Assembly: GCF_004363655.1 (NCBI RefSeq)
Contig: NZ_SNZH01000011.1
Span: forward strand, 62,001 to 126,000
Source of the DNA: Tahibacter aquaticus
GTDB lineage: Bacteria > Pseudomonadota > Gammaproteobacteria > Xanthomonadales > Rhodanobacteraceae
DNA length: 64,000 bases
Direction of reading: 5' to 3'
This document shows positions 26,547 to 43,225 of the stretch, piece by piece; the first letter of the stretch is position 1; each line of letters opens with the position of its first letter. The notes beneath the pieces are model-generated. The model did no database searches. It had not been told where the DNA came from and saw only the letters and a list, made by a program, of their open reading frames with translations. The position numbers and the translations under genes were made by a program.

Positions 26547-28982
26547 ATGAGCAAGAAGACCGACGCTCCCGGCGGTGACGCCGAAGCCAACGCCAGCCTT
26601 CCCAAACCGCGCAGTCGCGCCAGCAAACCTGCTGCAAGCGCCGACGCCGATAATTCCGCCACAGCGAAGCCGGCCGCGCGCCCACGCACTGCCGCACGCA
26701 AGACCGCCAGCGAAACCGCAGCAGGCGAATCGCCGCAAGGATCGTTGATCGCCGATACGGGCGAAGCCGCCACCGCGCCGAAGCCGCGCAGCCGCGCAAC
26801 ACGCAGCAGCACAGCCGCAGACGGCGAAGCCGCCGCCACCAAGACACCGGCGCGATCTTCCTCCGGGCGATTTGCGCCGAAGCCGGCGGCCGCTACGCCC
26901 GAGGCAACGCCGTTGGCGACAGCGGCCGATGCGCCGCCTGCGGCAGTACAGCGTGCGTCGCCGCCAGTCGCGGCGAAATCCACCCCCGTACCCACCGCCG
27001 CCGCGACACCGGCGAGCAGAGCATCCACTGCCGCGCCGGCGACGCCAGCACCGCCCGTCGCACCGGCTGCCGCGACCGCAACGCCAACACCGCCCGTCGC
27101 AGCACCACCATCAGCCGAAGCGCCTGTCGTTGCACGCACCGCGGTTTCACCTGCAACAGCAGCGCCGACAGCCGCACCGGCCGCTGCACCACCGCCGTCA
27201 ACACCAGGCGCGACGGCATCACCACCAGCGGTGGCAGCGCCGGTAGTCACGCGTCCGGCCGACGCATTGCCCACTGCGACGCCGCCCGTGGCAAGACCGA
27301 CCACCGGTGCGCAGCAGGCCACCGCCCCACCGATCAACACGCCGCCGGCAGCACGTCCGCCGATAGCGCCGGTTGCCGCTGTCACTGCGCCCGTTGCGGC
27401 GAAGCCGGCGACAGTCGCAGCGGCGCCCGCATCACTACCGTCGCATGCAGCGCCGCTTGCCCCACGTCCACCGCCGCCGGGTGGGGCGTCCGTCACGGCA
27501 CCGGCAGCGGTGAAACCCGCGCCGGCGGTGCCAGCTGCAGCACCACCGGTGACCGCGTCCGCGCCTGCCGGGCGTCCCGTTGTGCCGCCGCCCGCGGCGG
27601 CCGCGGCAACGCATTCCGCGGCGACCGCATCGCCGGTGCCTCCGGTCACTGCACCCGCGACCGCTTCACGCACAACTGGCGGCGCACACCGCCCTGGCGC
27701 CGGACCGGCCTCTGCGCCCCCGGCCGCCAGACCCTTGGCGCCAGCGCCGGCCAGCAGCACGGCACCCGCATCCCGTAGCACCGTCACACCGCCACCGCCG
27801 TCCCCACCCGCGCCGGCAACGCCCCAGGCACCCACCCATGCAACCGCCCCTGCACCACCGTCCACCGGCCCGACCCACGCCAGCAGCACACCGGTGCCGT
27901 GGATGAATACCGACAAGATTCCACCGCGCAGCGCGACGCCCGCAGCGACCGCCGCCGCAGACCCCGGCAAAGCCAAACCCGCCCACAAGGCCAAACCCGC
28001 CGCCGCCAAAGCCGCCGCACCCGCGCATCCCGCCGACGCCTCGGCGCGCTCCCGCGGCGTGCTCGAAGCCCTGCTGCGCCTGCTGCCCGCGGCCTGGCGC
28101 GACACCACGCGCGACTACCTCGTGCTGATGCGCATGGACCGCCCCATCGGCGCGCTGCTGCTGCTGTGGCCGACCTGGTGGGCGCTCTGGCTGGCCCAGC
28201 ACGACTTCCCGCCGCCGCACCTGCTGGTCATCTTCACCGTCGGCGTATTCCTGATGCGCGCCGCCGGCTGCGTCATCAACGACTACGCCGACCGCTGGCT
28301 GGACCCGCAAGTCGAACGCACCAAAGGCCGCCCCATCGCCGCCGGCCGCGTCACGCCGCGCGCCGCCCTGGTGCTGTTCGGCGTGCTGATGCTGCTGGCC
28401 TTCGGCCTGGTACTGCTGACCAACGCGCTGACCGTGAAGCTATCCCTGGCCGGTGCCGCACTCGCCACCTTGTATCCCTTTGCCAAACGCCACACCCACC
28501 TGCCGCAAGTGGTACTCGGCGCCGCGTTCGGCTGGTCCATCCCCATGGCCTTCGCCGCCGTCAAAGGCGGCGGCATCAACGTCGGGTTATTCGATGCCCT
28601 GCCCCCGCTGTGCTGGGTACTGTTCCTCGCCAACGTCGTCTGGGCCACCGTCTACGACACCGAATACGCCATGGTCGACCGCGACGAAGACATCAAGGCC
28701 GGCTCCAAATCCACCGCCATCCTGTTCGGCGACGACGACCGCATGATCATCGGCGTGCTGATGGGCACCTTCGTGATGGCGCTGGTACTGATCGGCAGCC
28801 GCGCCGAACTGCACTGGTCGTACTACTTCGCCGTCGTCGCGGCGGCAGGGCTATGCGGCTACCAGCAGTGGCTGATCCGCACGCGCGAGCGCGCCGCGTG
28901 CTTTGCGGCGTTCCGGAATAATTTGTGGGTGGGGATGGTGGTGTGGGCGGGGGTTTGTTTGGCGCTGGCGATAAGGCACTGA
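26547..28982 (+). CDS. ubiA: 4-hydroxybenzoate polyprenyltransferase UbiA with very long Ala/Pro-rich N-terminal frame
   Basis: Prenylates 4-hydroxybenzoate in ubiquinone synthesis at the inner membrane. Residues about 523-805 form a complete Ubi[21 protein letters not shown], the first Asp-rich motif NDYADRWLD (Asn578), the second motif [13 protein letters not shown] (from Tyr703) and eight to nine membrane segments. Normal UbiA is about 290 residues. Here the same frame is open for over 500 more: residues 1-110 are basic with PKPRSRA repeats, 110-450 are almost only Ala, Pro, Thr, Val, and 450-520 are Lys/Ala-rich. An ATG at 27903 would give 359 residues and is the conservative alternative. 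No strong Shine-Dalgarno is seen before either start. Confidence 0.88.
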
Positions 28983-29102
28983 GATCGCAAAGGGCGAGCC
29001 GCCGAACCGTACATCTCCAGCAGCATCGCAATCGGTCGAGGTGGTGGGTTTCGCGTCCCGTCACGTCGAATTGCGGGTCGCCTGCTGCAGCGTGTTGACC
29101 GA

Positions 29103-31613
29103 TCACTCAATCCCGCGCATGGACGTGACGAGGGTTTTGTCGTGGAAGCGGTAGGTTCGGCCACATTCGTTGATCGCAGCAACTTTACGCAGCGCGTCTG
29201 GCTCGCTTTCACCAGCTGCGCGCAACGCGGCATAAAGTTGGTGGAATTCGGTTTCGAGATCGCCTGCAAAAATTCCCGGATCGTCGGAACCCAGGCTGAC
29301 CAGGATCGGAGGGTCTTCAGCCTGAAGATATTCGGGCACCCGCATCCACCGCAACGAATGATGCTCCAGAAAGCTCTGGTACTGACTGATACGCACGTTG
29401 CTCGACGGTAACGTTTCGACGATGACACCACGCTGGCCGATATGGCGCATCAACGATTGCTGAATAACAACATATTGCGATGCGTCAAGGAACCCTGCAT
29501 CGACTTCAATGATCTCGTCGGCACGTTTGATGACATCGGAATCACTTAACCAGCGCCACAGCAACGCAGTTGCGTCAGGTTGTTCACGGACAACACGCCG
29601 TACCCGATCGATCTCCAACTGCCAGTGATTGCTAAGAGCGTCACTGGCGGCGCGCGAGCCCGTGCAGCAACGCAATAGGGTCTTCCGACACACGCCGCGC
29701 AGCGCCATGGCACGCTCAAGAACAGCTGCAGGTTGCCATTGACCAAAAATGTTTTGTCCCTGACTTTCAAACTCGCGCTGCAACCTAGGCACACATGCCT
29801 GCATGCCAGGAACATCCCTCACTAGCTGCCATGCAGCAAGAAGCGCGGTTAGCCATTCCCCGCGCGCGAGCAGGATACGACCCGGCATACGTTGCAACCA
29901 CAGACTCGGCGAGATACCCATCGCGGTGCCATGGCCTATCCGATCGCCACGCTGCAGTTCAAGCAGGTTGAGGGCGTCCCACATGTAGCTAATGCCAGAA
30001 AGCAAATGGCGAAAATCCTCACCCGCGTGAAACGTGCAATGCGGGAGTCCGGCTGCACGACAAACACGAAACACTGGCGCGAACACGTCAGGGGGGGCAT
30101 GCAGCTCGTTTGCTGCCGCGTCGATACCTCGCACCCACCGAGAAAGACGTGGCCAGCGCCTCAACGCAACCAGCAAGATGCCGGAATATCGGCGAAGTTT
30201 TTGATCGAGATCATAGTGTCGATACAGCTTCTCGACCTTAGGGGGCGCCAGCTTGACGAAGTGTACAACCAGCGCAAGTTGCAATACGCGCTGATTGCCT
30301 GGTCGCGTCGAATCCAGCTCGACGAGAAGCCTGGACAGAGGACGATAAGACGTGCTCATCGACCTGCGGCCTACCGTTTTCAGGTAGTGCAAATAGCCTT
30401 GGAGCACCGCTCTAATTAATTCGCTTAGCTCACGGAGCGTGTCTTTCGGCGCAATTCGTCCTTCAACATAGCCAGTGACGCTATGAAATCCCGATCCATG
30501 CATCGCCAGAAAACGTTGCTGGTAGGTACGCTCGGTAGGGTCGCGTAACTTGGTCAGTGTGAGCTTTTGGAACTGGTCAAAACCGTGAGAACTTTCGTTC
30601 TGAACGAGTAGCCGATAATACTGATTCTGCAGCAGTAGATACGTGTGGAACATGCCTCCAATCACGCCACTCGGCCGCGTGTCGAGCCTACGTATCAACT
30701 GAGTCTGCCACTCCAGTTCGGCTTGAATATCCAGGCCAACTCGCAATGACTGGCGTAGCCCAGCGAATGCTGGCGCCCTTTGGTAGCCGCCGCCGAGTAG
30801 TGCTTGGCAGGACTGTGGGAGCGTCATAGTCATGGGCAGACGTTCAGCGGCAAAGCATACAAGCCATTCGCGCAGTCTTGCCGCGAGGCATAGCCGTTTG
30901 AACAGCTCAGCCGGCGTCAACTCCGGATCGACCTGTCGCACGAGGTCACGGACACGCTCCCTATCCCTTCCGATGGACCATGCCTGATCGAAATCGCGAG
31001 TGTACTTACGTGGCGCGTCGAGAGCGCCAAGCCAGCAAACCTCGGCTTGGCTACTGCCATTCAAATGCAAGTGCGTTTCATGAAGACCTTGCTTTGCAAG
31101 GTATTCGTCGATTGACGCATTCGCGGGCTTGAGCAACGGCACAGACAAACGCCCCCAGGAGGCTGAAGGCACTGGCGTCATTCCCAAACGCGCCGAACGA
31201 TCGTCGCGCCCTTCGCGGCTGGTCGCATTGAGCGAAACGGCGGCCATTGCCTGGATCGGTAGCGATGACATGCGGCTGGCAACTCCTTGTTGCCAGGCGC
31301 CGAACTTCAAGTGATCGACGTAAATCTTAAGGTGCCTGTATTCGACAAACTCACTGACCAGCTGGTGCAGCGCGGACCGCACAAGGCATGAGCGATACTG
31401 AGCGCCCACGGACACTTGTCGCCATGCCATATCGAAAACGTGATCTGGGTAACGCGCAGCCCAGGGCTGGTACGCCAAGTAAACTGGCTCTCGCAACAAA
31501 TCCCAAGTCGATCGCCCATTGAACGGCGCAGCGCGCAGATACTTAAGCACGCGGTAGTCCGATAGCAGTAGCGTTGAAAGCAGCGCGCTTGTAGACACCA
31601 ATTGGCCGTTCAT
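29103..31613 (-). CDS. rdrB: RADAR system adenosine deaminase RdrB
   Basis: An 836-residue deaminase, far longer than housekeeping adenosine deaminase (about 340). Metal and catalytic motifs appear in the order of that superfamily: H181-x-H183 in THLHLNGSS, His529 and Glu532 in FHAGED, His561 in RIGHG, and Asp777-Asp778 in GSDDPGIF. RdrB of RADAR assembles with the RdrA ATPase during phage infection and deaminates adenosine nucleotides or RNA, blocking phage growth. The partner ATPase gene lies directly upstream and overlaps by four bases (ATGA). GC content is visibly lower than in the flanks. It ends 120 bases from ubiA. Substrate and anti-phage role are inferred from family. Confidence 0.87.
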   Translation of the reverse strand: MNGQLVSTSALLSTLLLSDYRVLKYLRAAPFNGRSTWDLLREPVYLAYQPWAARYPDHVFDMAWRQVSVGAQYRSCLVRSALHQLVSEFVEYRHLKIYVDHLKFGAWQQGVASRMSSLPIQAMAAVSLNATSREGRDDRSARLGMTPVPSASWGRLSVPLLKPANASIDEYLAKQGLHETHLHLNGSSQAEVCWLGALDAPRKYTRDFDQAWSIGRDRERVRDLVRQVDPELTPAELFKRLCLAARLREWLVCFAAERLPMTMTLPQSCQALLGGGYQRAPAFAGLRQSLRVGLDIQAELEWQTQLIRRLDTRPSGVIGGMFHTYLLLQNQYYRLLVQNESSHGFDQFQKLTLTKLRDPTERTYQQRFLAMHGSGFHSVTGYVEGRIAPKDTLRELSELIRAVLQGYLHYLKTVGRRSMSTSYRPLSRLLVELDSTRPGNQRVLQLALVVHFVKLAPPKVEKLYRHYDLDQKLRRYSGILLVALRRWPRLSRWVRGIDAAANELHAPPDVFAPVFRVCRAAGLPHCTFHAGEDFRHLLSGISYMWDALNLLELQRGDRIGHGTAMGISPSLWLQRMPGRILLARGEWLTALLAAWQLVRDVPGMQACVPRLQREFESQGQNIFGQWQPAAVLERAMALRGVCRKTLLRCCTGSRAASDALSNHWQLEIDRVRRVVREQPDATALLWRWLSDSDVIKRADEIIEVDAGFLDASQYVVIQQSLMRHIGQRGVIVETLPSSNVRISQYQSFLEHHSLRWMRVPEYLQAEDPPILVSLGSDDPGIFAGDLETEFHQLYAALRAAGESEPDALRKVAAINECGRTYRFHDKTLVTSMRGIE

Positions 31614-34342
31614 CGGCCTTTTTTGCCCGACGTTACGGCTTTTTTCTTAGCCGGTTCTTTGGTCTCCGGTTTAGGCCGTGCCTTGATGGCGGGTTTTTTT
31701 TTCGCGGAAGATCCGCCTTCCTCATTTAGGTACGATGGGTGCGCATTCGTCGCATCCAGCACAGGGGCACGCCGTGTCTGATTCGCTGTGACGATACCAT
31801 CGTAGCTGGCTTTATTGCGACAGCTACCTTTAGGAAGTAATTGCTCGAACATCTCCCGATACTCCGCACGCTCGTAGAGCAGACCAAGTACTAGCGGACA
31901 CGTCGCAACGATGGCCATCAACGGCCAGCGCTCAGGCAACAACTTCGTAGCCTTGAGCTTTTTTAGAAAAGGTTTTGGACTAGTTCGCGGATTACCGCGA
32001 TTGACGGGCTCAGTTTCATTTGTCTGTGCGCCGATGACAAAGTGATGCTCAGCCTCTTCCACAAAAAACGCATTGAGTAGACAGACCGCGAACATTTCTA
32101 CCAAGTCCGCCGCTACATTGGGCTTTTCCAACTTGGGACCAAATGCTTCGGCAACATTCTCGAGGTTATGTAGTAAGCGGTTCGCGACTTTACCGACAAA
32201 TATAGAGGATGGTGCCAGAAATCTTTTTAGTAACTCGACATCGCTCAGCCATTCCTCCACAGGTATCAGCAATTTTTCGATTAGTTCATCATCGGCTTCT
32301 TCCTCGGTATCTAACCGACTGCTCGCACGTCGCCTAATCTCGGCTTCGGCGGTAGCGCCCCAGCTCGGCGCAGGAATCGTCAGAGTCGGATAGGTCTTTC
32401 GAAGTAAGTGTCTAATGTCTTCGATCGACAAACCTTTCCCAGCTTTGTCGTTCTTGGCATTGTACTGCTCGGATAGCAAACGCTCGACCAATCCCAGGAG
32501 GGTGAACAGCGAGGCATATGTTCGAATCCCCTTTCTCTCAGAGATTTTTATGAGACTCAGCTGAATCGCGGCCGATTCGGCGGCCGAATCTTTGCTAGAA
32601 AGGAAATACGTGCCAAGCTGGACGTCTTTCGACCGTGGCGTCGAGTAATGCGATGCTATTTGGCCTGTGGCGCGGCGCCCCCAATCCAGCGCATATTCGT
32701 CACGACCTATGCCGAGGTACTGTCGAAAGCGCTGCCGTCCGAGATCGGATTGTTCGTTATAACCACCGCCATCGCGCGTCAAAACATAGAGTAGGACGTT
32801 AAGTGGGCCGCGACAGAGATAACGCAGCATCGCGCCCGGTTGACCATAGCAGAATCGTGCAACTTCGGCGGCAAGGGCGGCTGAACAGTTGCGAATGTCC
32901 TCATCGTCCGAGGTCGGCGACAGATAAGGCGCCGTATCTACATCGTCGCCACCACGCGTGAGATCGAACACCGCGCGACAGAGCTCCGGCGAGCTGCGCT
33001 CGGACAACGCGTCGGTATCAATACGCAGCTTGTAGAGACTCGTCAGCGTCAACCCCCGCATTGCGGCGCAGAAAGCGTTGAACAGCTCGCCAGGGTCGGT
33101 TCGGCCCGAGTCGCAGTTGGGCCATTCAAGATGAGGCGCACAGTGCGCCATCAGATCAATAACGGATCGCAACGGCTGCTTCAACAAGTAGACGCGAAAC
33201 AAAGCAACATCAGATTTGGTACGAATGCGTAATGCCGAGCGGATCAGTTGATCGATTTGCTCGCGAACATCGCATTTCGCGTTGTCCCAAGAAAACTCGT
33301 ACCTATACGTGTTCGTCGACTCATCCATCGTGTTCCAGAGCGGCGCTAGCGAAGCGCGCCGATGCGTAGGAAACAGTTTTAGAAGGTATTGCTCTTCAAG
33401 CTGGTCGATCATGCGTAGATATTGGTCAGACCGTCCTTTGTGCGCTATGTTTTCTGTATTTGCATTGCCGAATATGACCCTGCCGCCGATGGTTTTCGCG
33501 AAATGACGTCGGACTAGCAAAGCATAGAGTTCCATGTCACCAGCAACTACTACCATCATGCGCGGCATATCTAGATACTTACGTATGCATTCAAGCAGAC
33601 CCACCGCGTGGCCTGCGTGTGTGTCCGCGTCATCGAAAGCCAGCATCAATGCATCGACTTTCAAAATTTCGCAGGCAAGGTCGAACAATTTGTGCAACTT
33701 CTTGCGTAAATCGAGACTATCTCCAGCGCGCTCCAATCCCCAATCGAGAAACAGCTCCGGATCAAGATCATTAAGCGCGTGATGTCCCTGTTGGAACAGC
33801 GCCAAGCCACCTGCAACGTTTTTAAAAGCTTCGCGCCAGCCTTGGCGAGATTTTTCGCAGTCGAGGCTGCCTTGCACTTCCAACTGCTTATCTACGCATT
33901 TGGCAATTTGCCGCAGTATGACAAGAAGCGGGATTTCGCTGTGCTCGATCCGACTCGGGTCAATAAGCGGCAAGAAGCGCATTCGAAATTTTGCTTCTTT
34001 CTTTTTCTCGAAAACCTCTTTGAGATGGCGGAGAAAGGTTGATTTTCCCGCGCCACGCGTACCGTCGAGAAAAAAAGTCCACCCACTCGCGCTTGGATAG
34101 CTATCCGGTTCAACCACGTATTCCGGCACGCGGAGGTCGTCAAGTCGATCAAGGTGGTCCCTAACACTGCGGCGGAAGCTGTCATATTGGCGGCGGTGAA
34201 TAGGCTCGCGTGTTTCGGACGGATCGCGACCCGCTCCAGTAGATCCTGATTGCGCTTGCCATTCCGGACGATCCAGTTTGATGACAACCGATTCGAGATT
34301 GGGTGCGTGGCCAATAGACGGGGTTGGGACCTGATTCGACAC
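31610..34342 (-). CDS. rdrA: RADAR system P-loop ATPase RdrA
   Basis: A 910-residue ATPase. Walker A is GTRGAGKST at residues 94-102, Walker B-like LAFDDAD with Asp237-Asp238; the rest is a long helical region with no recognised domain, ending in a Lys-rich tail (PAIKARPKPETKEPAKKK). Size, KAP-like P-loop and the immediately following large adenosine deaminase match RdrA, which forms a ring and delivers substrate to RdrB. The GTG at 34342 is chosen because a perfect AGGAGG lies six bases before it; the upstream ATG at 34384 has none. First gene of the operon. No third accessory gene (for example a small membrane protein) is seen next to it. Confidence 0.87.
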   Translation of the reverse strand: MSNQVPTPSIGHAPNLESVVIKLDRPEWQAQSGSTGAGRDPSETREPIHRRQYDSFRRSVRDHLDRLDDLRVPEYVVEPDSYPSASGWTFFLDGTRGAGKSTFLRHLKEVFEKKKEAKFRMRFLPLIDPSRIEHSEIPLLVILRQIAKCVDKQLEVQGSLDCEKSRQGWREAFKNVAGGLALFQQGHHALNDLDPELFLDWGLERAGDSLDLRKKLHKLFDLACEILKVDALMLAFDDADTHAGHAVGLLECIRKYLDMPRMMVVVAGDMELYALLVRRHFAKTIGGRVIFGNANTENIAHKGRSDQYLRMIDQLEEQYLLKLFPTHRRASLAPLWNTMDESTNTYRYEFSWDNAKCDVREQIDQLIRSALRIRTKSDVALFRVYLLKQPLRSVIDLMAHCAPHLEWPNCDSGRTDPGELFNAFCAAMRGLTLTSLYKLRIDTDALSERSSPELCRAVFDLTRGGDDVDTAPYLSPTSDDEDIRNCSAALAAEVARFCYGQPGAMLRYLCRGPLNVLLYVLTRDGGGYNEQSDLGRQRFRQYLGIGRDEYALDWGRRATGQIASHYSTPRSKDVQLGTYFLSSKDSAAESAAIQLSLIKISERKGIRTYASLFTLLGLVERLLSEQYNAKNDKAGKGLSIEDIRHLLRKTYPTLTIPAPSWGATAEAEIRRRASSRLDTEEEADDELIEKLLIPVEEWLSDVELLKRFLAPSSIFVGKVANRLLHNLENVAEAFGPKLEKPNVAADLVEMFAVCLLNAFFVEEAEHHFVIGAQTNETEPVNRGNPRTSPKPFLKKLKATKLLPERWPLMAIVATCPLVLGLLYERAEYREMFEQLLPKGSCRNKASYDGIVTANQTRRAPVLDATNAHPSYLNEEGGSSAKKKPAIKARPKPETKEPAKKKAVTSGKKGR

Positions 34343-34686
34343 GCCGTTCCTCCTGAATCGAAACCGCAAGTTGATCGAAAGCACACCAAATACCCTAGCC
34401 GACGGCGCGCGCTGTGAACCTTACGGCAGTTTGTTGCCGTCGCGCAATGTATACGAGCGGCCCTGGGAGAGAAACGCCGATACCGGCGCAACAGACGATG
34501 TGTATCACACATGCGCCGGCGCGAAGTGCTTTGCGGAACTCTCAATACTCGATGTACTGCTGAGGATCTTTTATTGGCTGGGCTGCCGGCTGCGGTTTCT
34601 ATTCTCCGACGAACTGAAACTATCGTCTCTGGAACCCAATGTTGTCCCGCGCTCAAATGGCATACCGCCACTGATCTGCAGCCGCC
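34343..34686. promoter_or_regulatory. Divergent promoter region of rdrA and radC-like gene
   Basis: 344 bases of low-GC DNA containing only the AGGAGG site of rdrA (34349-34354, minus strand) as a clear signal. Open frames here look random. Promoters for both genes must lie in or near this stretch, but I could not fix -10/-35 elements. Confidence 0.5.
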
Positions 34687-35238
34687 ATGGACTTTCGCTA
34701 CCTGACAGAATTTTCGGACGTAGGATCAAGAACAACACTTGCCCGTGCGTTGGACATTCTGGAAGCTCAGGCGAGAAAACCTGGCCCAGCCTTGGCTAGC
34801 TCGCACCTCGCAGCAGAGTGGTTCCGAATTCGTCTTTCGCCGCTGAGCCACGAAGTCCTCGCCGTCGCCTGGCTCAACCCCAAACTCCACCTCCTCGAAT
34901 TCCGCGAACTCGCCCACGGCACCCTGGACCGCGTGATGGTTTATCCGCGCGAAGTGGTGAAGTCCGCGTTGGCGGCCAATGCCTGGGCCGGCATCCTGGC
35001 CCACAACCATCCCTCGGGTGACGCGGAGCCGTCGGATGCGGATATCGCGCTGACGCACGAACTGCAGGCGGCACTGCGCCTGGTCGACGTGAAGCTGCTG
35101 GACCATTTCATTGTCACCGCCGCGCAGCCGCCGTTTTCGATGGCACAGGCAAGGCTGCTGGTGCCGGAACCCGGCCTGCGCCCAGCGCTGGCATTGGCGG
35201 GACGGGTGAAAGGCCGGCGTAAGGCGGCGCGCCCGTAG
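34687..35238 (+). CDS. Short RadC-like JAB/MPN (JAMM) domain protein, mobile type
   Basis: A 183-residue protein with the RadC JAMM metal site: Glu in LLEFRELAHGT and H-x-H-P-S-G-x4-P-S-x2-D in ILAHNHPSGDAEPSDAD. It lacks the N-terminal helix-hairpin-helix region of housekeeping RadC (about 225 residues), like the YkfG/YeeS-type copies on prophages and islands. The function of RadC is unresolved; it is not needed for repair as once thought. Composition shifts inside the gene: the first about 150 bases are low in GC like the RADAR operon, the rest is high in GC like the chromosome. The start has no strong Shine-Dalgarno. Confidence 0.82.
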   Translation: MDFRYLTEFSDVGSRTTLARALDILEAQARKPGPALASSHLAAEWFRIRLSPLSHEVLAVAWLNPKLHLLEFRELAHGTLDRVMVYPREVVKSALAANAWAGILAHNHPSGDAEPSDADIALTHELQAALRLVDVKLLDHFIVTAAQPPFSMAQARLLVPEPGLRPALALAGRVKGRRKAARP

Positions 35239-35390
35239 GAACGCGGCGCACAGCCGGCGCGCTGTCGGTGGGGTTTGCCGATTGACGGTTTATGCGGAAA
35301 CGCCGCCACGGTGGGCGGCCCGGCCCAGGGATTGGCCCGTTTCCGCTCCCGGCTGCGCGCCCTGGCTTTCGGTCAAAAAGCCCGAAACGC

Positions 35391-35642
35391 GGCGCTTTTT
35401 TTGCGGTGCTCCGCGCTTTTACCGTGGAACTCGGCGCTTTGACGGTCGCGTTCCGCCCTTTTTTCGCGGAACGCCGCGGAGTGAGCGCGGAACCCCGCCG
35501 TTTGGGCGCGGAGCACGGCGCGTTGACCGTGGCGCTCCGCCCTTCTGGCGCGGAACGCGGCGCTTCGACCGCGGCCTTCCGCGCGGAAAGGGTGGAACTT
35601 CGCGTTTTGACGGCGGAATGCCGCGCTTTGCGGGCGAATGCT
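35391..35642. repeat. Tandem array: 12 imperfect copies of a 21-bp unit
   Basis: Units follow one another without gaps from 35391 in steps of exactly 21 bases; each starts CGCGCTTT-like or GGCGCTTT-like and ends GCGGAACGC-like. Because 21 is a multiple of three, several frames stay open on both strands and read as heptads: plus-strand frame xRALTAE-like (35292-35813), minus-strand frames FRAxxAE-like (35373-35846) and ARSSTVK-like (35114-35716). None has convincing start signals or a known family, so I leave all uncalled as genes. Confidence 0.9.
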
Positions 35643-35819
35643 TCGGCCGGAATGGCCGGCCGCCCCCCGGCGGCCGCCGGGTCCGGTGCACGGCAGCGTC
35701 GGCGGGTTCGCCACACGGTGCAGCCCGTTGGCTGCGGCGTCTGGCACGCCGTTGTTGATTGCTACAAAACAGTTTTGATCAGAAACGCCCGAACTATTCA
35801 ACGAATGGAATAACACAGC

Positions 35820-35844
35820 GCCGCGCCCCTGCCACGGGCGCGGC
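35820..35844. terminator. GC-rich hairpin downstream of hypothetical gene
   Basis: Nine-bp arms GCCGCGCCC / GGGCGCGGC with loop ctgccac, 24 bases beyond the stop of the leftward hypothetical gene. Followed on the minus strand by GTGTTATT, a poor U-tract. Confidence 0.5.
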
Positions 35845-35867
35845 ACTGTGCGGCAGGCGCTGGCGGG

Positions 35868-36365
35868 TCAGGTGGCGGGCGGGTTGCTGCCGCCGTTGTC
35901 GCCGGCGGCTTTCTTGGGCTTGCGCGGCGCACGGGCGAAGCGCACCGACAGCTGTTTGCACAGGGCATCGAGCCCCTGCGCCTTGCCACCGGCGCGCAGG
36001 GCGCCGTAGCCGCCCAGGGCCAGCACCATGATGTCGCTGCCCAGGGCGGCCTCGGTATCCCAGGCGCGTTCGGACAGGCGTTCCATGCGGCGGAACAGGG
36101 GTGTCAGCTGGTCGAAGGTGAGCACGTCTTTCTTGCCTTCGGCCAGGTCGAGAATGGGCGGGATGAGTTCGGGGTTCTGTTCCATGGCCAGCAGCGTGGC
36201 ATCGCAGAAGGGCTTGGATTGCTGGCCCATGCGGGTAAGGCTGCGGCGTTCCTGCGGGGTGAGGGAGACGAAACCCGCGAACAGGGTTTCCAGTTGGGTG
36301 ATGGCCGCCTCGGCGGCGGCCAGTTGGTCGTCGGTCAAGGCGAGATCGACAAGGTTCTGGGTCAT
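35868..36365 (-). CDS. Conserved hypothetical protein, helical, cytosolic
   Basis: A 165-residue protein: MTQNLVDLALTDDQLAAAEAAITQLETLFAGFVSLTPQERRSLTRMGQQSKPFCDATL, then LTFDQLTPLFRRMERLSERAWDTEAALGSDIMVLALGGYGALRAGGKAQGLDALCKQLSVRFARAPRKPKK. It has no signal peptide or membrane span and is predicted mostly alpha-helical with a basic tail. I recall similar unnamed proteins in diverse bacteria but no function. The start at 36365 has GGAGA six bases upstream, so the longer frame to 36497 is rejected. It marks the return to chromosomal composition right of the repeat array. Confidence 0.8.
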   Translation of the reverse strand: MTQNLVDLALTDDQLAAAEAAITQLETLFAGFVSLTPQERRSLTRMGQQSKPFCDATLLAMEQNPELIPPILDLAEGKKDVLTFDQLTPLFRRMERLSERAWDTEAALGSDIMVLALGGYGALRAGGKAQGLDALCKQLSVRFARAPRKPKKAAGDNGGSNPPAT

Positions 36366-36807
36366 GGTGCTCTCCGAGTGAAAGGGGCCGGGGCGGCGGT
36401 GGGCGCTGCCCGCGCGATGCCGCTGCCCGGTGACGGCCGGGTGGCGCACCGGGCGGCGGCAGGGACCGAGTCTTTCACTGGATGCACATGTATGCAATGG
36501 AACTATACGCTGTAGTTAAGAAATACACTTACGTATGGAATGGGCGTATGGACGGCGAGAGGAATACGTTCCGTGCGGGCTGCGGCTTTTGTAGCGGCGA
36601 TGTCGAATACGGGTGTTCGTCATTGTTTTCGCATGGCGGCACTACGCCGGCGAATCGGCGGCGTGAGTGAGGGCGTGGCGTTTTTCCGGGCGGTATTGCG
36701 CCAAGCGGAAGGCCGCGGCGGGCGGGCGGCCCTGCCGGGGAGCGTGCAAGATAGCCCGCACCCACGGGCGCTGCCCCGACGGCCGGACGCCAACCGGCGC
36801 CGGTTGC
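36366..36807. other. Intergenic region, about 440 bases
   Basis: GC-rich near 36366-36480, then an AT-richer stretch (36485-36560) with ACTATA at about 36502, which reads TATAGT on the minus strand and may be the -10 element of the leftward hypothetical gene. The octamer CGTATGGA occurs twice at about 36533-36551. A 62-codon plus-strand frame at 36482 has no support. Confidence 0.4.
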
Positions 36808-38379
36808 TCATTCCTGCCAGAACGCCGCACCACGCACTTGCTCATACACACGATCGAACACGCGCAGGCCGTCGCCAGGCTCGTGCCGCTCGACGGTCGG
36901 CGGTGCCGCCAGTTGCATGACCGCCCCACCCTCGCCGGCATAGCGGGGCCACTGCGGCAGTCCCTTGCCCGACGGGTCGCCGCGCTTGACGAAGTTCACC
37001 CAGTAGCTCGCCATCTGCTGCGCCAGGCGCTGGTCGGCGGCGCTCCAGCGCCAGCGGGCCTGGTCCAGGTGATCGAACATGTACCACAGCTCGGCGAAAT
37101 GGCCCGCGCCCCAGTTTGCGTACACCGACCCGGCCGGAAACGGCGGGCGCTGCGCAAACCGGTAGAAGTACACCGGCTGCGTGCCGGCCAGCGCCTGCAG
37201 GCGTGCCCAGGCCCACATATCCCAGCCAAAGCGCAGGTCGCGCTCGAAATCCAGGCGGGCCTGCTGCGCCTGCGCATCGGTGGCAGTTGCATAGGCCGCG
37301 AGCAAGGGCGCCGGCAGCTTGCCGAAACGGCGTTCGATATCTGCCGCGAATGTCGCCGCTTTCACGGCGCTCACATCGACCAGCGAGCGCGCTTCCTCGG
37401 CGTTGGAACCGATCAGCAGCGGCACAGCGTTGTGCTGCCGCGCGCGATAGGCCGCATACGGCGTCAGCGGCAGTACATCGGGCTCGATCACCGGGTGACT
37501 GAGCGCCGCCGCCGCCGCCGTCAGCAACGCCGCCGCGGGCAAGGCGCGCAGTTCGCGTATCGAACCTGCGCCCACCGACGCGGCGTATTTCTCGCCATCG
37601 CGTTCGGCATTCGCCAGTTGGTAGGACGGCGCGAGTTGCTCCGGTTCGAACACGCCGCCGCTTTGCCCGATCGCGCCGTGGAACAGACCCTTGGCCCGCG
37701 GCGAAGCGAGCAGCAGGCTGACCGACATGGCACCGGCCGATTGCCCGGCAATGGTCACCCGCGCCGGATCGCCGCCAAATGCGGCAATATTTTTTTGCAC
37801 CCATTGCAACGCGGCCATCTGGTCCATCAGGCCGTAGTTGCCCGAGCCGTGCCGGGCCGATTCCGCCGTGAGCTGCGGATGCGCCAGGAAGCCGAATACG
37901 CCCAGCCGATACGCTACGCTGACGACGACGATGCCCCGGCGCGCCAGGCGGTCGCCCCAGTACAGCGGCATGGCCGCGGAACCATTGGTATAGCCGCCGC
38001 CATGAATCCAGACCAGCACGGGCAGGCGCTGGCCGGCGCGCGGGGTCGGTGTCCAGATATTCAATGCCAGGCAGTCTTCACTCACCACGGGCGGTGTTTC
38101 GCCCGGCATCGACACGCCGGTTTGCAGGCAGGCCGGCGCAAATGCAGTTGCCTTGCGCACGCCTTCCCAGGCCAGCGGCGGCTGCGGCGGCATCCAGCGC
38201 AGCGCGCCAACGGGCGACGCGGCGAACGGAATGCCCTTGTACGCGGTGACGCCACCTTCGCGCACACCGACCACGCTGCCGCTTTGCGTCAACACCGGTT
38301 TCGCCACGGCCAGGCCGCTACCAAACAGGAAAACTGCGGCCGCCATCGCGGCCATTACATGTATTGCCTTCACCGTCAT
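36808..38379 (-). CDS. Carboxylesterase type B, exported
   Basis: A 523-residue serine esterase of the cholinesterase/carboxylesterase family. A signal peptide (VMAAMAAAVFLFGSGLAVA) leads to the periplasm or outside. Motifs: SEDCLALNIWTP, oxyanion hole WIHGGGYTNGS, nucleophile GQSAGAMS, acid-region IGSNAEEAR and the His in GAGHFAELWYMF. It hydrolyses carboxylic esters of unknown identity. The ATG at 38379 gives a clean signal peptide and has GAGG ten bases upstream; ATG 38406 adds nine residues and is possible. Divergent from the LytTR regulator with 106 bases between starts, so it may be that regulator's target. Confidence 0.9.
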   Translation of the reverse strand: MTVKAIHVMAAMAAAVFLFGSGLAVAKPVLTQSGSVVGVREGGVTAYKGIPFAASPVGALRWMPPQPPLAWEGVRKATAFAPACLQTGVSMPGETPPVVSEDCLALNIWTPTPRAGQRLPVLVWIHGGGYTNGSAAMPLYWGDRLARRGIVVVSVAYRLGVFGFLAHPQLTAESARHGSGNYGLMDQMAALQWVQKNIAAFGGDPARVTIAGQSAGAMSVSLLLASPRAKGLFHGAIGQSGGVFEPEQLAPSYQLANAERDGEKYAASVGAGSIRELRALPAAALLTAAAAALSHPVIEPDVLPLTPYAAYRARQHNAVPLLIGSNAEEARSLVDVSAVKAATFAADIERRFGKLPAPLLAAYATATDAQAQQARLDFERDLRFGWDMWAWARLQALAGTQPVYFYRFAQRPPFPAGSVYANWGAGHFAELWYMFDHLDQARWRWSAADQRLAQQMASYWVNFVKRGDPSGKGLPQWPRYAGEGGAVMQLAAPPTVERHEPGDGLRVFDRVYEQVRGAAFWQE

Positions 38380-38485
38380 CTCCGTCGAAACCTCGCCGTA
38401 AAGCATTGATGGCGAACGGCGGGAAGGCCAGACCGGTTCACACCCGAAGCGGAGCGGTTCGCCCCAAAGCCCTGTCATTCGCCCT

Positions 38486-39385
38486 ATGGACGAAGCGAAA
38501 GGTGCTTGCCAGACTCGAACCATGATGCGAACCGCGCTACCGCACGCCGCCGGCCCGACGCGCGCTCTTCCGGCGTGGCTGCGCCAAGGCGTGATCGGCC
38601 TGCTGTACTGGGCCGCGTTCCTGCTGGTGCTGGAGCCCGGCAATATTCTGCGTGCCAGCCAGGCCGGCCACTCGCTGGCGGCCGGCGACGAAGCCTTGCG
38701 CATTCTGGCGGCATCGCTGTTGGGCGCCTCGGTAACGCCCTGGGTGTTCCAGTTGACGCACCGCTTTCCTGTGCTCGGTCCCGCGCGCTGGCGCCACGGC
38801 CTGATTCATGCCGGCGCCACCGTCGGCCTTACGCTGTGGCTGATTCTGCTGTCGTGCTTCCTCGCGGCCTGGGTCTTCCACGGCCGCTGGCTGCCGACGC
38901 TGATCGAGCTGCGCGAGGAATACACGGCGAATGGCTTGCTGCTCGTGTTCGCGCTGCTGGCGTTTGTGGCTGGACTGCACGCGCGCCGGCTCGATAACGT
39001 GCAAACGATGGCCGGCACCGCAGCGCCATCGCCACACCTTGCACAGATACCGGTCAAGCACCGTGGCCGCACCCACTTGATCAACGTCGCCGACATCGAT
39101 TGGATCGAAGCGCAGGGCAACTACGTTGCACTGCATGTCGGCGGTGCCAGCCATCTGGTGCGCGAATCGCTCAGTGCGCTGGAGCGGCAGGTGGATGGCG
39201 AGCGGTTCGTACGCATCCATCGCGGTGCCATTGTTGCCCTCGCCCGCATTCGTTCGCTGAAACCGATTGCTAACGGCGATGCGATGCTGGAAATGACCAA
39301 CTCGGCGGAAGTGCGCGTCAGCCGGAGCTATCGCAAAGGATTGGCGGCGCGGTGGGTAGACGGCAAGTCCGCAGGCTCGCCCTAG
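38486..39385 (+). CDS. Membrane-bound LytTR-family DNA-binding regulator
   Basis: A 299-residue regulator. The N-terminal half has four membrane segments (about 33-52, 68-88, 106-130 and 146-162) and the C-terminal part (about 190-290) is a LytTR DNA-binding domain: HLINVADIDWIEAQGNYVALHV, LVRESLSALERQ, FVRIHRGAIVALARI and the final RVSRSYRKGL. There is no response-regulator receiver domain, so the signal probably comes through the membrane part. Direct-repeat LytTR boxes were not identified. The first ATG at 38486 is used; ATGs at 38522/38525 would remove 12-13 residues. Confidence 0.85.
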   Translation: MDEAKGACQTRTMMRTALPHAAGPTRALPAWLRQGVIGLLYWAAFLLVLEPGNILRASQAGHSLAAGDEALRILAASLLGASVTPWVFQLTHRFPVLGPARWRHGLIHAGATVGLTLWLILLSCFLAAWVFHGRWLPTLIELREEYTANGLLLVFALLAFVAGLHARRLDNVQTMAGTAAPSPHLAQIPVKHRGRTHLINVADIDWIEAQGNYVALHVGGASHLVRESLSALERQVDGERFVRIHRGAIVALARIRSLKPIANGDAMLEMTNSAEVRVSRSYRKGLAARWVDGKSAGSP

Positions 39386-39447
39386 CGCTGTCCTCGCTTC
39401 GCGATAGATGACGTAGCGATGCGGTGCATGGCATTCACGGCAAGGGA

Positions 39448-39476
39448 GAAAGAGCCGCCGCGCTGGCGGCTCTTTC
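39448..39476. terminator. Bidirectional intrinsic terminator
   Basis: Perfect 12-bp stem GAAAGAGCCGCC / GGCGGCTCTTTC with a five-base loop. A- and T-rich outer ends give a U-tract in both directions, between the convergent LytTR gene and the small secreted protein gene. Confidence 0.85.
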
Positions 39477-39486
39477 CGTGCGCCCG

Positions 39487-39732
39487 TCAGGACACCGGAA
39501 GGCCGTGCTCCCGCGCCATGCATTCGCGGTACGCATCGCCTTTTTCGATGACGATCTGCCGTGCGTAATCGCAGAGGTGTGGAGCGACGAAACAAACGTG
39601 TTCCGCTGTCTCGACCGCCGTCTCGAAGTCGTGATACTCCGCCGCGCATTGAGCAGCGCGAGCCGGCACGGGTGTCAGTGCAAACAGCGTCGCGGAGGCG
39701 GCAAACGCGAGCGAAAGCGGGATCTTTTTCAT
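39487..39732 (-). CDS. Small secreted Cys-containing protein
   Basis: An 81-residue precursor. The signal peptide MKKIPLSLAFAASATLFALTPVPARA leaves a mature chain of about 55 residues starting AQCAAEYHDFETAVETAEHVCF, with four Cys that could form two disulphides (C-x17-C-x6-C-x15-C approximately). AGGAAA lies seven bases before the ATG, and a strong terminator follows, so it is a genuine small gene. No family recognised; function unknown. Confidence 0.75.
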   Translation of the reverse strand: MKKIPLSLAFAASATLFALTPVPARAAQCAAEYHDFETAVETAEHVCFVAPHLCDYARQIVIEKGDAYRECMAREHGLPVS

Positions 39733-40121
39733 GGCAATTTCCTTATGGGGTGCGGCGTGTCAGCGGTTCGGGCCGCCGAATGGACTTGCCGACGGAACGG
39801 CGCAGGACGCAGTTGCCGGCCAGGCGAGTCAACGCAATTGCCCGCATGCTCGCCACCCCGATGGGACAGGCTGCGGTTTGCGGGATACGAATGCCACGCT
39901 GGCGTGCATCAACGGCACAGGCGATGGCGCCGATACGCAGGCTGCTGCGCAAGCGCACGTGTCGTGTTCGACAGCGGCGCGGCCCTGACACGCAGGCGCC
40001 GATTCATCGGCACGTCGCCCGCTTCGAGCCGATTGCCTGCAACAGGCGACGCGGTGAATGAGGTGATGGTGGTGCTGACGATGCCGTGTTGCGTGGTACG
40101 GGTAACCGTCAGTGCGTGGCC
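39733..40121. other. Intergenic region, about 390 bases
   Basis: No gene, RNA or repeat was recognised. Frames on both strands look like chance openings of GC-rich DNA. It carries the promoter of the small secreted protein gene at its left end. Confidence 0.4.
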
Positions 40122-40673
40122 TCAGTCGTCGCCGGCGTCGCGGCTGAAGTCGCCAGCCAGCGCGAGGAAGGGAGAGCGGGTACGCAGGTCGAACGCCGCC
40201 CGCAAGCGCCGTGCACCGCGCTTGCCGCGCTGGCAGTAACAGCAGCCGCAGGGTGTGCGCTCATGCGCATCGGGAAAATGTCGCCAGCCGATATGTTGTG
40301 GCAATTGGCGTACTGCCTGGATGTCGCCGGCCGGGACACGCCGCGGCAGGATGACTTCGTAGCCGAGCAAACCCTGCTCGCGCAGCTGTGCCGCAGCCTG
40401 GTCGGCCGTGATGCAGTGCTTGTCGTCGTTGTAGTGGCCCGCCCAGACCGGCTCGTTGCCGCCCACCTTGAAATATACGCCGATGGCAGTGCGGAAGCGG
40501 CCGTGTTTGATTTCGCGCAGCCACTGGTGCGAAACGACGAAGTTCGGCACTACCGGCAGGGCGAACACGCCGTAGGCACGTGGTGCCTGCACGGGTGGCG
40601 ATGCCAGTTTCAGGCCATTGCGGCGTATCGATGCGGCGTCGCGAGAGTCTGCAATGTGGACAAATATCGGCAT
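40122..40673 (-). CDS. Conserved hypothetical protein with CxxCxxC-like cluster
   Basis: A 183-residue cytosolic protein starting MPIFVHIADSRDAASIRRNGLKL. Notable segments are GVFALPVVPNFVVSHQWLREIK, AIGVYFKVGGNEPVWAGHYN, LLGYEVILPRRV and HFPDAHERTPCGCCYCQRGKRGARRLR, whose close Cys residues (C-x-C-C-x-C) and His could bind metal. I remember the family as conserved in Proteobacteria without a function; the opening and layout recall ADP-ribosyltransferase-like folds, but that is speculation. The ATG at 40673 fits where similarity begins; no clear Shine-Dalgarno. Divergent from the small exported protein gene at 40807. Confidence 0.72.
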   Translation of the reverse strand: MPIFVHIADSRDAASIRRNGLKLASPPVQAPRAYGVFALPVVPNFVVSHQWLREIKHGRFRTAIGVYFKVGGNEPVWAGHYNDDKHCITADQAAAQLREQGLLGYEVILPRRVPAGDIQAVRQLPQHIGWRHFPDAHERTPCGCCYCQRGKRGARRLRAAFDLRTRSPFLALAGDFSRDAGDD

Positions 40674-40806
40674 GGCGACGATGGCAGTGGTAGTGGCGAC
40701 AGCACAGTGTACGACCGTCTGCACGGCGGTCGCGCTGCGCATGACCGCCTATGCGTATACGGCAGCCGTGCTAGCCTCGGCAGCGTTCCGCCGGCCAGGA
40801 CACTGG

Positions 40807-41184
40807 ATGAGAAGGTTCCACCTCGCTACCTGCGCACTGGCTGCCGCCTTGGGCGCCGCATCGTTCGCCAGGGCGGAGCAAGCAGCCCCGCTCGCCTCTA
40901 CCGGTGCCGGCGATACCGAATGCACACCGCTGACCATCGGCGCGCCCTTCATCGGTCCAGCGCAATCGGTAGCCGAGGCCGAAGCCGAATCGCTGCAGCA
41001 GCTCAAGGGGGCGACCGGTGTTCCCCAGCGGCCGTTCGGCTTCGCCAATGCGGCTTGGCTGGATTTGAAGGCAGGCATGAAACCCGGCGACAGGCTGCAT
41101 CGCTACAACATCGGCGATGAAGGCGGGCATCTGGTGTTGAGAAATGGGTGTCTGGTCGGGCGGCTGATGGAGTGGGCCCGCTGA
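40807..41184 (+). CDS. Small exported hypothetical protein
   Basis: A 125-residue precursor with signal peptide MRRFHLATCALAAALGAASFARA and a mature domain that reads IGAPFIGPAQSVAEAEAESLQQLKGATGVPQRPFGFANAAWLDLKAGMKPGDRLHRYNIGDEGGHLVLRNGCLVGRLMEW. The first part repeats the style of a helical linker, and the GDRLHRYNIGDEGGHLVLRNGCLV segment looks like a compact beta domain. AGGAC lies six bases before the ATG. No family recognised. The frame is open upstream to 40618 but that part has no coding signals. Confidence 0.68.
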   Translation: MRRFHLATCALAAALGAASFARAEQAAPLASTGAGDTECTPLTIGAPFIGPAQSVAEAEAESLQQLKGATGVPQRPFGFANAAWLDLKAGMKPGDRLHRYNIGDEGGHLVLRNGCLVGRLMEWAR

Positions 41185-41324
41185 AACCGGGCGGGCGGCG
41201 TTGCTTGCTACCCGCGGCCGGCCGCTCGCTTACCGAGGGGGCGGTGTCGCGCCACCCGGCAAGTCTTTGCGGCGATCGTCGCGCTCCAGCCTGCGTGCGA
41301 TGGCCTTTGTCGCCGATTCGGCAT

Positions 41325-41765
41325 TTACGGGGCTTTCGGCTTGCTATACCACAGCGCATTCACGATCAGCCACTTGTCGCCAAAATTTCCCATATGGAAA
41401 TAGTCGACAAACCACGGTGTCTCCAGGCGCACCGAGGCGGCGTTGCCGGTGATGTCGAGGATGGTGCAGGTGCGGTTCCATTGATCGGCCGGGGTTTTCA
41501 GCGCGCCTTGCTTGGTCAGGCCGACCAGTTCTTCCTTGCTCATGCGGCGCAGGCCGAAGCGTTCGTACGGCGTGTCGCCGATCACGGCGCGCTTGGCCAG
41601 GTCGGGATGCAGCGAACGGGCGACGCGGTCGGGGTTGGCTTCCAGCTGGCCGTCGATGTAGTCGAAGCAGGTGGCCTTGACGGCCTCGATGGTCTTGGGA
41701 TCGGCGTTCTCGGCCGGGCTGCCCGCCGCCAGTGCGATGGCGGTGAAGAGGGTGATGAGTGTCAT
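41325..41765 (-). CDS. Lumazine-binding-like / NTF2-fold exported protein
   Basis: A 146-residue protein with a short signal peptide (MTLITLFTAIALAAGSPA) and a cone-shaped alpha-beta NTF2-like domain: IEAVKATCFDYIDGQLEANPDRVARSLHPDLAKRAV, MSKEELVGLTKQ, CTILDITGNAASVRLETPWFVDYFHMGNFGDKWLIVNALWY. The pattern fits the Lumazine_bd_2 family, small periplasmic proteins of unknown function. AGGAAA lies six bases before the ATG at 41765. It ends the leftward cluster that follows the DUF2975-XRE-membrane operon, but a 184-base gap separates them. Confidence 0.78.
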   Translation of the reverse strand: MTLITLFTAIALAAGSPAENADPKTIEAVKATCFDYIDGQLEANPDRVARSLHPDLAKRAVIGDTPYERFGLRRMSKEELVGLTKQGALKTPADQWNRTCTILDITGNAASVRLETPWFVDYFHMGNFGDKWLIVNALWYSKPKAP

Positions 41766-41949
41766 CGGTTTTCCTGGAATGGAGTGAGCCGGCAATCGCG
41801 TCGTGCGCGACACGCCAGGACCGTCGAACCGGCGAAGGCATTTCGTTCGATGCCGCGCTTGGGTGCGTACATGCGCCCAAGCGTGCAGCGGGCAGGCCAG
41901 GCTGCCCGGTGCACGCTGTGCGGGGCAGTGCCGGGCGTCCGATGCCGGG

Positions 41950-42393
41950 TCAAGCGGCCAGCGGCCGGCGTGGCAGAACGAAGGTGCGAAAAACATAGCC
42001 CCAGGGCACGGCGATCATCGCCAGCGGAATCCACAGGAACACCATGGCCATGGGTTCGGCCGGCGAGCCGGCCAAGGTGCCGGCGCGCCATAGCGGCAGG
42101 GCGACCACGGCCAGCCACAGCAGTTTGTAGCCGATCATGAACACCACGATGGGCAGCAGGCGCAGCGGTTGCAGCAGGCCCAGTACCGACAAGGTGGCGT
42201 AGGTCGCCCAGACGCAGAATGCGACTGCCCTGAGCGGCTCCCACGGGCCCTGGTGGGTGATGATCGCCGACCACGAATCCCAGCCGACGAAGGCAAACAT
42301 CAGGAAGTAGAGAAAGCGCAAAAGGTAGATGTTGATCGGCCGCACGCCGTCGTAACGCAGGCGGTCGGGCGTGAACAGGGTCTGGATGAACAT
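41950..42393 (-). CDS. Small integral membrane protein
   Basis: A 147-residue protein with four predicted membrane segments (about 24-42, 58-75, 78-98 and 117-138) and short loops: IYLLRFLYFLMFAFVGWDSW, AVAFCVWATYATLSVLGLL, LLPIVVFMIGYKLLWLAVVALPLW and PMAMVFLWIPLAMIAVPWGYVF. Third gene of the operon led by the DUF2975 gene; its start is four bases after the stop of the XRE gene, so it is cotranscribed with it. Function unknown. Confidence 0.75.
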   Translation of the reverse strand: MFIQTLFTPDRLRYDGVRPINIYLLRFLYFLMFAFVGWDSWSAIITHQGPWEPLRAVAFCVWATYATLSVLGLLQPLRLLPIVVFMIGYKLLWLAVVALPLWRAGTLAGSPAEPMAMVFLWIPLAMIAVPWGYVFRTFVLPRRPLAA

Positions 42394-42397
42394 GGCG

Positions 42398-42661
42398 TCA
42401 GCCTTCGGTGGATTCGGATGATTCGTCGCCGGCGTCGAACGCTCGCTCGCCGGCTTTGCCCGGGGTGTAGGTGAGCAGGTCGCCGGGCTGGCATTGCAGT
42501 GCTTCGCAGATCGCGTCGAGCGTGGAGAAGCGCACGGCGCGGGCCTTGCCGGTCTTCAGGATGGAGAGATTGGAAACCGTGATGCCGATGCGCTCGGACA
42601 ACTCGGTCAGCGTCATGCGGCGCGCATAGAGAACGTCGTCGAGATTGACCGTGATGGGCAT
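42398..42661 (-). CDS. XRE/Cro-CI family helix-turn-helix regulator (YozG-like)
   Basis: An 87-residue DNA-binding protein. The helix-turn-helix is MTLTELSERIGITVSNLSILKTGKARAVRFSTLDAICEALQCQPGDLLTY, the compact form found next to DUF2975 membrane proteins. The acidic tail EERAFDAGDESSESTEG-like has no known role. Its ATG begins two bases after the stop of the DUF2975 gene. It is the natural candidate for binding the repeated site at 43226-43282 and repressing the operon. Confidence 0.85.
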   Translation of the reverse strand: MPITVNLDDVLYARRMTLTELSERIGITVSNLSILKTGKARAVRFSTLDAICEALQCQPGDLLTYTPGKAGERAFDAGDESSESTEG

Positions 42662-42662
42662 G

Positions 42663-43193
42663 TCAGACCGTCCCTTCCAGGTCTTCGCGTAGGCGTGTGC
42701 CGTGGTCGAACACCCGCGCCAGCACGAACAGCAGCAGCACGGCGAGCCAGGGCGTCGGCGAGAAGCTGCCGTCGAGGTCCAGCGGCATGGCCGGCGACGA
42801 CACTAACGCCTCGACGAGGCCGACGCCCAGGCGCAGCAGTTCGAGCGCCAGCACGGCCCAGGCGATCTGCTGCAGCCGCGTGGCGTTTTGCGCCACGAAC
42901 GGATCGCCCTGGTTCACCGTCAGCACGATGGCCAGCAGCCGCGTCAGCGCGATATGGGTGACCGGGGCCGAGACGACACCGACCAGCATGATCAGGCGCA
43001 TGCCGATGAACAGCGCGGCGCTGCCCTCGTTCGACGGTACGCCGAGGGCGCGCATGACCCAGTCCCCGGCCACCAGCGAGGCAACCAGCAGCGCGAGGAT
43101 GAGGAAGCCCAGCAGCAGATTGAGCGCGATGAGCAGCCGCAGGGCGCGGCGCGACAGGGCCAGGGTGTTGGGACGGGAAAGGACTTGCGGCAT
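42663..43193 (-). CDS. DUF2975 membrane protein
   Basis: A 176-residue inner membrane protein with four hydrophobic segments: LLIALNLLLGFLILALLVASL, GMRLIMLVGVVSAPVTHIALTRLLAIVL, AWAVLALELLRLGVGLVEALV and TPWLAVLLLFVLARVF. The segment VNQGDPFVAQNATRLQQIAWAVLALELL and the terminal LARVFDHGTRLREDLEGTV are the DUF2975 signature. Such proteins are nearly always encoded with a YozG-type XRE regulator, as here; the pair may sense a membrane signal but no function is proven. First gene of the operon. Confidence 0.85.
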   Translation of the reverse strand: MPQVLSRPNTLALSRRALRLLIALNLLLGFLILALLVASLVAGDWVMRALGVPSNEGSAALFIGMRLIMLVGVVSAPVTHIALTRLLAIVLTVNQGDPFVAQNATRLQQIAWAVLALELLRLGVGLVEALVSSPAMPLDLDGSFSPTPWLAVLLLFVLARVFDHGTRLREDLEGTV

Positions 43194-43225
43194 GGGTGCC
43201 TCCGTCGGGCTTGGCAGAAGTATCT

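Follow-up and report, generated by a model that had tools for sequence, protein, structure and literature searches.

A divergent and probably acquired RADAR operon in Tahibacter aquaticus

The 64,000-nucleotide stretch of Tahibacter aquaticus DNA analyzed here (the window) carries a genuine RADAR operon, a divergent addition to a known rare family that is otherwise ordinary. Very likely it is a complete and apparently intact two-gene system that was gained horizontally, in which an RdrA ring would sense infection and RdrB would make (d)ITP from (d)ATP. The two genes are paired, their catalytic residues are intact, the predicted monomer folds are those of solved RADAR proteins, and the operon occurs patchily. 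RADAR is present in less than 1% of genomes according to the study of the Escherichia coli system (PMC9994260), which also describes protection of E. coli by all three RADAR systems tested. PMC13327615 quotes a figure from DefenseFinder, 135 in 22,818 genomes.

In the window, rdrA is followed directly by rdrB on the same strand (Table 1), and each product is about 900 residues long, the size given for both RADAR proteins in PMC9994260. The first-pass annotation, made from the sequence alone, had described two genes of 910 and 836 codons that overlap as ATGA behind a perfect AGGAGG, and the coordinates, lengths and both signals are as it described. Open frames of these lengths, each with relatives along nearly the whole protein, are far beyond what chance would produce. 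The overlap suggests that translation of the two genes is coupled and is also what points to their co-transcription. A consensus scan of positions 28950-34760 returned no sigma-70-like promoter (shuffle mean 3.5) and 19 terminator-like sites (shuffle mean 6.6), many of which are intragenic or on the opposite strand.

Table 1. Features of the operon and its surroundings (feature, position in the window, strand, basis)
rdrA, RADAR AAA+ ATPase, 910 aa, GTG start	31610-34342	minus	PADLOC, PDB phmmer, residue map, AlphaFold
rdrB, RADAR adenosine deaminase, 836 aa	29103-31613	minus	PADLOC, PDB phmmer, residue map, AlphaFold
ATGA overlap of rdrA stop and rdrB start	31610-31613	minus	read directly from sequence
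AGGAGG ribosome-binding site, 6 nt before the rdrA GTG	34349-34354	minus	read from sequence
Intergenic region between divergent rdrA and radC	34343-34686	no strand	presumed operon promoter site; none recognised
Short RadC-like JAB-domain gene (radC), divergent neighbour of rdrA	34687-35238	plus	Pfam RadC 2e-36
Stretch absent between ubiA and comF-like gene in five same-genus relatives	approx. 28979-49788	no strand	genome comparison

The best PADLOC families for the two products are RdrA (6.3e-23) and RdrB (7.3e-25). Among the sequences of solved structures, phmmer matched window RdrA to E. coli RdrA (PDB 8hr7/8fnt, E=7.6e-61) over stretches 88-567 and 672-818, so that homology covers the C-terminal lobe as well as the ATPase domain, and window RdrB to E. 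coli RdrB (PDB 8fnw, 9.1e-137) over residues 31-825; the best ordinary adenosine deaminase matched RdrB at only 1.5e-4. PHROGs held no family for RdrB, gave RdrA a weak match to a family of unknown function (0.0021), and placed radC in a DNA-repair family. One could still suppose that the pair is not RADAR, and that a housekeeping-type deaminase happens to adjoin an unrelated P-loop ATPase, given that Pfam A_deaminase matches RdrB (1.1e-10) and that the window falls below the NCBIfam RADAR cut-offs. However, the match to solved RdrB is more than 100 orders of magnitude better than that to the best ordinary deaminase, E. coli RADAR has similar NCBIfam scores, and rdrA and rdrB are paired in 76 of 81 loci. 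The sequence matches to solved chains, together with the fold matches, refute this supposition in practice, and its probability is negligible.

The NCBIfam cut-offs deserve comment. The window scores 119.8 for RdrA (cut-off 600) and 123.1 for RdrB (cut-off 800), below both, and E. coli MSI001, a system whose RdrB can be aligned over its full length with the solved E. coli chain (1855 bits), also fails with 128.8 and 118.6. Pseudomonas fluorescens L044 scores 125.6 and 123.7, and the PADLOC scores of the window, MSI001 and L044 are likewise similar to one another. Since a system of the solved E. coli type scores equally low, the low scores are no argument against membership, and the cut-offs do not define the RADAR family. 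They missed all three systems tested (window, MSI001, L044), and annotation based on them therefore probably under-reports RADAR. RADAR proteins in L121 and in the E. coli matches carry labels such as 'archaeal ATPase', 'adenosine deaminase', 'amidohydrolase family protein' and 'hypothetical protein'.

AlphaFold models of the monomers reached a mean pLDDT of 87.2 for RdrB and 79.6 for RdrA. The RdrB model matches E. coli RdrB (8fnv) with TM scores of 0.82/0.89 over 835 alignment columns, while the non-RADAR deaminases at ranks 9-19 among its listed matches have TMq values of at most 0.29. For RdrA, ranks 1-20 are all RdrA chains, namely 19 listed E. coli chains (TMq 0.67-0.73, TMt 0.71-0.79) and, at rank 20, Streptococcus suis RdrA (0.37/0.41). 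The alignments used for folding were hand-picked (34 of 76 RdrA and 29 of 81 RdrB) and included E. coli-like rows, and the RdrA profile search was built on the same rows as the RdrA folding alignment; the fold and RdrA profile results therefore do not count as evidence separate from the E. coli matches, whereas the phmmer matches to solved chains are independent of the hand-picked alignments. RADAR profiles in PADLOC, solved E. coli chains and predicted monomer folds thus all bear out the identity claimed in the first-pass annotation, and the profile searches that it had proposed as a check led to RADAR rather than to unrelated ATPases or housekeeping deaminases.

RdrA has the Walker A motif GTRGAGKST, which contains K100, followed by Walker B residues D237/D238, sensor 1 D269 and sensor 2 R392. 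The deaminase motifs of RdrB are HETHLH (H181, H183), TFHAGED (H529, E532), IGHGTA (H561) and GSDDPG (D777, D778), the last two residues presumably belonging to the metal site. Both the sequence and the residue map agree with the earlier description of these motifs and of K100 and H181/H183. E. coli positions taken from PMC9994260 were mapped onto the window by aligning 76 RdrA and 81 RdrB sequences. Of 14 catalytic positions, seven in each protein, 13 are identical to E. coli: G99, K100, D237, D238, D269 and R392 are kept in RdrA, as are H181, H183, H529, E532, H561, D777 and D778 in RdrB, and the one change is S101 in place of T (S in 21/76 RdrA).

The residues tested at the assembly contacts of the E. 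coli proteins are different. Mutations in E. coli, as described in PMC9994260, probed the RdrA-RdrB contact residues K150, E151 and R162 and the RdrB three-fold interface E595-E597. The former crown contacts correspond to R166/Q167/G178 in the window and the latter residues to a gap, Q625 and W626, so that neither set is kept. Both sets vary across the family as well: K150 is K in 14/76, E151 is E in 28/76 and R162 is R in 19/76 RdrA sequences, and E595, E596 and E597 are E in 13/81, 23/81 and 22/81 RdrB sequences, respectively. Contact and interface residues are thus no defining feature of RADAR, and because they are changed here and variable elsewhere, assembly, if any, would proceed via other side chains.

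The changed interface residues could also be taken, along with the missing promoter consensus and the short frames seen in other copies (L056, L114, L117 and L084), as marks of a RADAR copy that has lost its ability to assemble through decay or has fallen silent. This we hold to be improbable: neither frame is shortened, the overlap and the signal for ribosome binding have survived, as have the catalytic residues, and the positions at the interfaces are variable across the family in any case. An intact system remains the preferred reading. The C-terminus of RdrA (encoded at 31613-31747) forms a lysine-rich tail with a net charge of +9 in the last 45 residues, predicted to be disordered (pLDDT below 50 from residue 854); only 0.33% of 4232 internal windows reach a net charge of 8. 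The tail was rejected as a family trait, a net charge of at least 8 being found in 3/76 RdrA and in 1/20 of the clade described below. A doubtful idea, to which we give little credence, is that this beta/gammaproteobacterial clade is a RADAR variant that docks ring and shell by different contacts, and that the basic tail peculiar to the window's RdrA may add nucleic-acid sensing to the trigger.

How the operon might act can be outlined from the E. coli system. There, according to PMC9994260, an RdrA heptamer and an RdrB dodecamer together form assemblies of up to 10 MDa, RdrB deaminates ATP and dATP to yield ITP and dITP, and the system depends on both active sites; production of ITP by E. coli RdrB was seen in vitro, levels of (d)ITP go up when cells are infected, and the trigger is left unexplained. 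By analogy, window RdrA would assemble into an ATP-hydrolyzing ring, detect infection and dock on the RdrB shell, and RdrB, a putative zinc adenosine deaminase, would turn (d)ATP into (d)ITP, which would poison the nucleotide pool and thereby stop phage replication. The E. coli system is the source for every step of this outline, from assembly and choice of substrate to activation on infection and protection of the host.

The first-pass annotation had named adenosine nucleotides or RNA as the substrate. The same RADAR system could indeed act against phages by passing RNA through the RdrA ring and editing it from A to I, an idea conveyed by the original name and the proposal made for the Citrobacter system, with which some sites gave a weak A-to-G signal (both reported in PMC9994260); moreover, the RdrA model matches structures deposited in the PDB as 'heptameric RdrA ring in RNA-loading state'. 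Against this, no strong editing was found with E. coli RADAR, and RdrB converted ATP but not hairpin RNA (PMC9994260), and that E. coli system is the nearest solved relative of the window. RNA editing is thus unlikely, and of the two substrates proposed earlier, free (d)ATP gains and RNA loses ground (PMC9994260). The nucleotide reading is repeated in PMC13327615.

To place the operon among its relatives, we assembled a set of 82 RADAR rows, in which 77 loci from a genome-contig scan are joined by the window, one locus from E. coli and three from plasmids; 81 are distinct, as L109 repeats L038. An rdrA gene was found in 76 of the 81 distinct loci, every time ahead of rdrB and in the same orientation. 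The two genes lie at most 30 nt apart in 66/76 pairs and share a 4-nt overlap in 21/76, counts that are approximate because gene borders in the 81 loci were set mechanically at the most upstream start. Four of the loci lacking rdrA (L058, L077, L091, L102) have only 0 to 1.5 kb of sequence upstream of rdrB, and the fifth, L084, has in the place of rdrA a 193-residue P-loop frame that looks like a cut rdrA. Short frames also occur in rdrA of L056 (459 aa) and L117 (540 aa) and in rdrB of L114 (313 aa), apparently broken or cut copies.

In a quick RdrB tree (LG+G4; 16 of 78 inner branches below 80), the window groups with L044, L045, L046, L055 and L070 (SH-aLRT 100), a six-row group that spans Pseudomonas, Vogesella, Ferrovum, Aquabacterium and the window. 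This group is nested in a clade of 21 rows, which from the organism names we take to be mostly beta- and gammaproteobacterial, and the clade is the sister branch of the E. coli-type clade (34 rows together, SH-aLRT 99). The nearest relatives of the window are 55% identical in RdrB and 43% in RdrA. A sister branch with kept chemistry and changed contacts should be useful for asking which surfaces matter.

A Pantoea rdrB query matched 4 of 5426 E. coli genomes, and window RdrB matched 7 of 72,556 plasmid records, three of them over at least 80% of the protein. No RADAR match was found in 50,697 phage records. In IMG/VR, five contigs matched, of which L136 does so over 68 residues only; the other four (L132-L135) encode near full-length RdrB relatives of 34-42% identity, and some RADAR copies may therefore ride on prophages. 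At L038, on Rhizobium leguminosarum pRLN3, a purine enzyme stands beside the purine-deaminating defense system: an adenylosuccinate synthetase-like protein (12306-13907, Pfam 2.6e-51) is encoded about 0.9 kb after rdrB and has a weak N-terminal P-loop match (0.016).

The setting of the operon argues for acquisition. Its GC content (rdrA 0.529, rdrB 0.565) lies below that of both flanking stretches (0.667 at 1-28982 and 0.669 at 35239-49780), and its third-position GC (0.56 and 0.60) below that of the eight other genes measured (0.72-0.90). The operon is present in one of eight genomes of the genus and in one of 398 genomes sampled from the order, scored on at most two candidates per genome in the rows shown, and in both cases the one is the window's own genome. 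The only sign of a second RdrB in that genome is a weak 79-residue match on another contig (E 2.1e-4). In five same-genus relatives, the match to the window runs up to about 28946-28978 and resumes from about 49789-49805, with 65, 82, 126, 1814 or 2195 bases between the junctions compared to 20.8 kb in the window; the 1814- and 2195-base gaps hold a different gene. The comparison covers five of the seven other genomes of the genus, as in G002 and G006 the contigs with ubiA are just 3 to 5 kb long and do not reach across the site; their sequence showed no match to the RADAR region. With a GC dip and an operon-free site in five relatives, the first-pass claims of low GC and acquisition hold up, and the operon was probably gained by horizontal transfer.

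The RADAR genes form the low-GC left edge of the 20.8-kb stretch, parts of which match elsewhere in the genomes of the relatives. Pfam families in the rest of it are RadC, carboxylesterase, LytTR, Lumazine_bd_2, DUF2975, a beta-lactamase fold, AraC type and sigma-70 type, this last presumably an ECF sigma factor, and the right-hand flanking gene is one that we take to be comF. Among the 11 non-RADAR frames of 28979-49788 scanned with Pfam, three have no family and none is an integrase; further frames were recognized by eye as SDR, AhpD and LysR-like. No tRNA was found around the operon, and no convincing repeats bound it within 28900-35300. On the left, the UbiA prenyltransferase frame (26547-28982) has a putative alanine/proline-rich N-terminal extension of about 500 residues before its Pfam domain (539-793); within the genus, the length of the open frame at ubiA varies between 357 and 917 residues, in some cases limited by contig ends.

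The divergent radC gene is probably not a RADAR component: it was rejected as such on the grounds of six matches in its own genome and a match at only one of the 80 other loci (L062, flanks examined). Three of the six RadC-like copies (34687-35238, L011, L018, L023, L025 and L027) have internal stops, and such copies may mark mobile islands. A conserved third gene was likewise rejected. Only three window neighbors were matched at the other loci, at one locus each: radC at L062, an alkaline-phosphatase-like frame at L094 and a LytTR gene at L082; of the neighbor clusters, the best 45 were listed. A PADLOC search of six frames close to the operon for further defense genes found no family at 0.01.

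Some RADAR systems carry an accessory membrane gene of the rdrC/SLATT type. As claimed earlier, the window appears to lack one, there being no same-strand neighbor of at least 70 residues with a predicted membrane segment within 250 nt of the operon by a crude hydropathy count, which can miss genes. This is usual in the clade, in which 18 of 20 loci with both genes have no membrane neighbor, some of their contigs ending close by, and the other two, L052 and L059, have a neighbor with one predicted segment. Neighbors with at least two predicted segments occur in 3/76 pairs (L090, L092, L120). At L092, a 231-residue frame after rdrB has four predicted membrane segments; its sole Pfam match at a threshold of 0.05 is chance-like (0.045), and we rejected it as an identification.

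Among known systems, the operon most resembles E. coli RADAR (8fnt, 8fnv, 8fnw, 8hr7; PMC9994260) in gene order, protein sizes, catalytic residues and predicted folds. It differs in that RdrB is 37% and RdrA only 25% identical, RdrB has 836 rather than 799 residues, contact and interface residues are changed, and the genes overlap by 4 nt, whereas those annotated in MSI001 lie 26 nt apart. The systems of P. fluorescens EK007-RG4 and P. gingeri (L044, L045), Vogesella fluminis (L046) and Aquabacterium soli (L055) belong to the same six-row clade and have the same overlap (RdrB 50-55%, RdrA 43% identical), but share no neighbor with the window (blastp, 1e-6) and lack its basic RdrA tail. The RADAR of S. 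suis (8fnu) has a similar ATPase domain (phmmer 0.0055, Foldseek 4.2e-11) and is otherwise very distant, with TM scores of 0.37/0.41 and 13% identity. Finally, the deaminase part of RdrB resembles that of Cad1, a CARF-fused adenosine deaminase of type III CRISPR systems, as it matches PADLOC CARF_ADA at 3.3e-11, and the title of PMC11645235 gives Cad1 an ATP-to-ITP effect. However, the Pfam scan of window RdrB shows no CARF domain, and in place of the cyclic oligoadenylate sensing of Cad1, the window has a separate ATPase partner.
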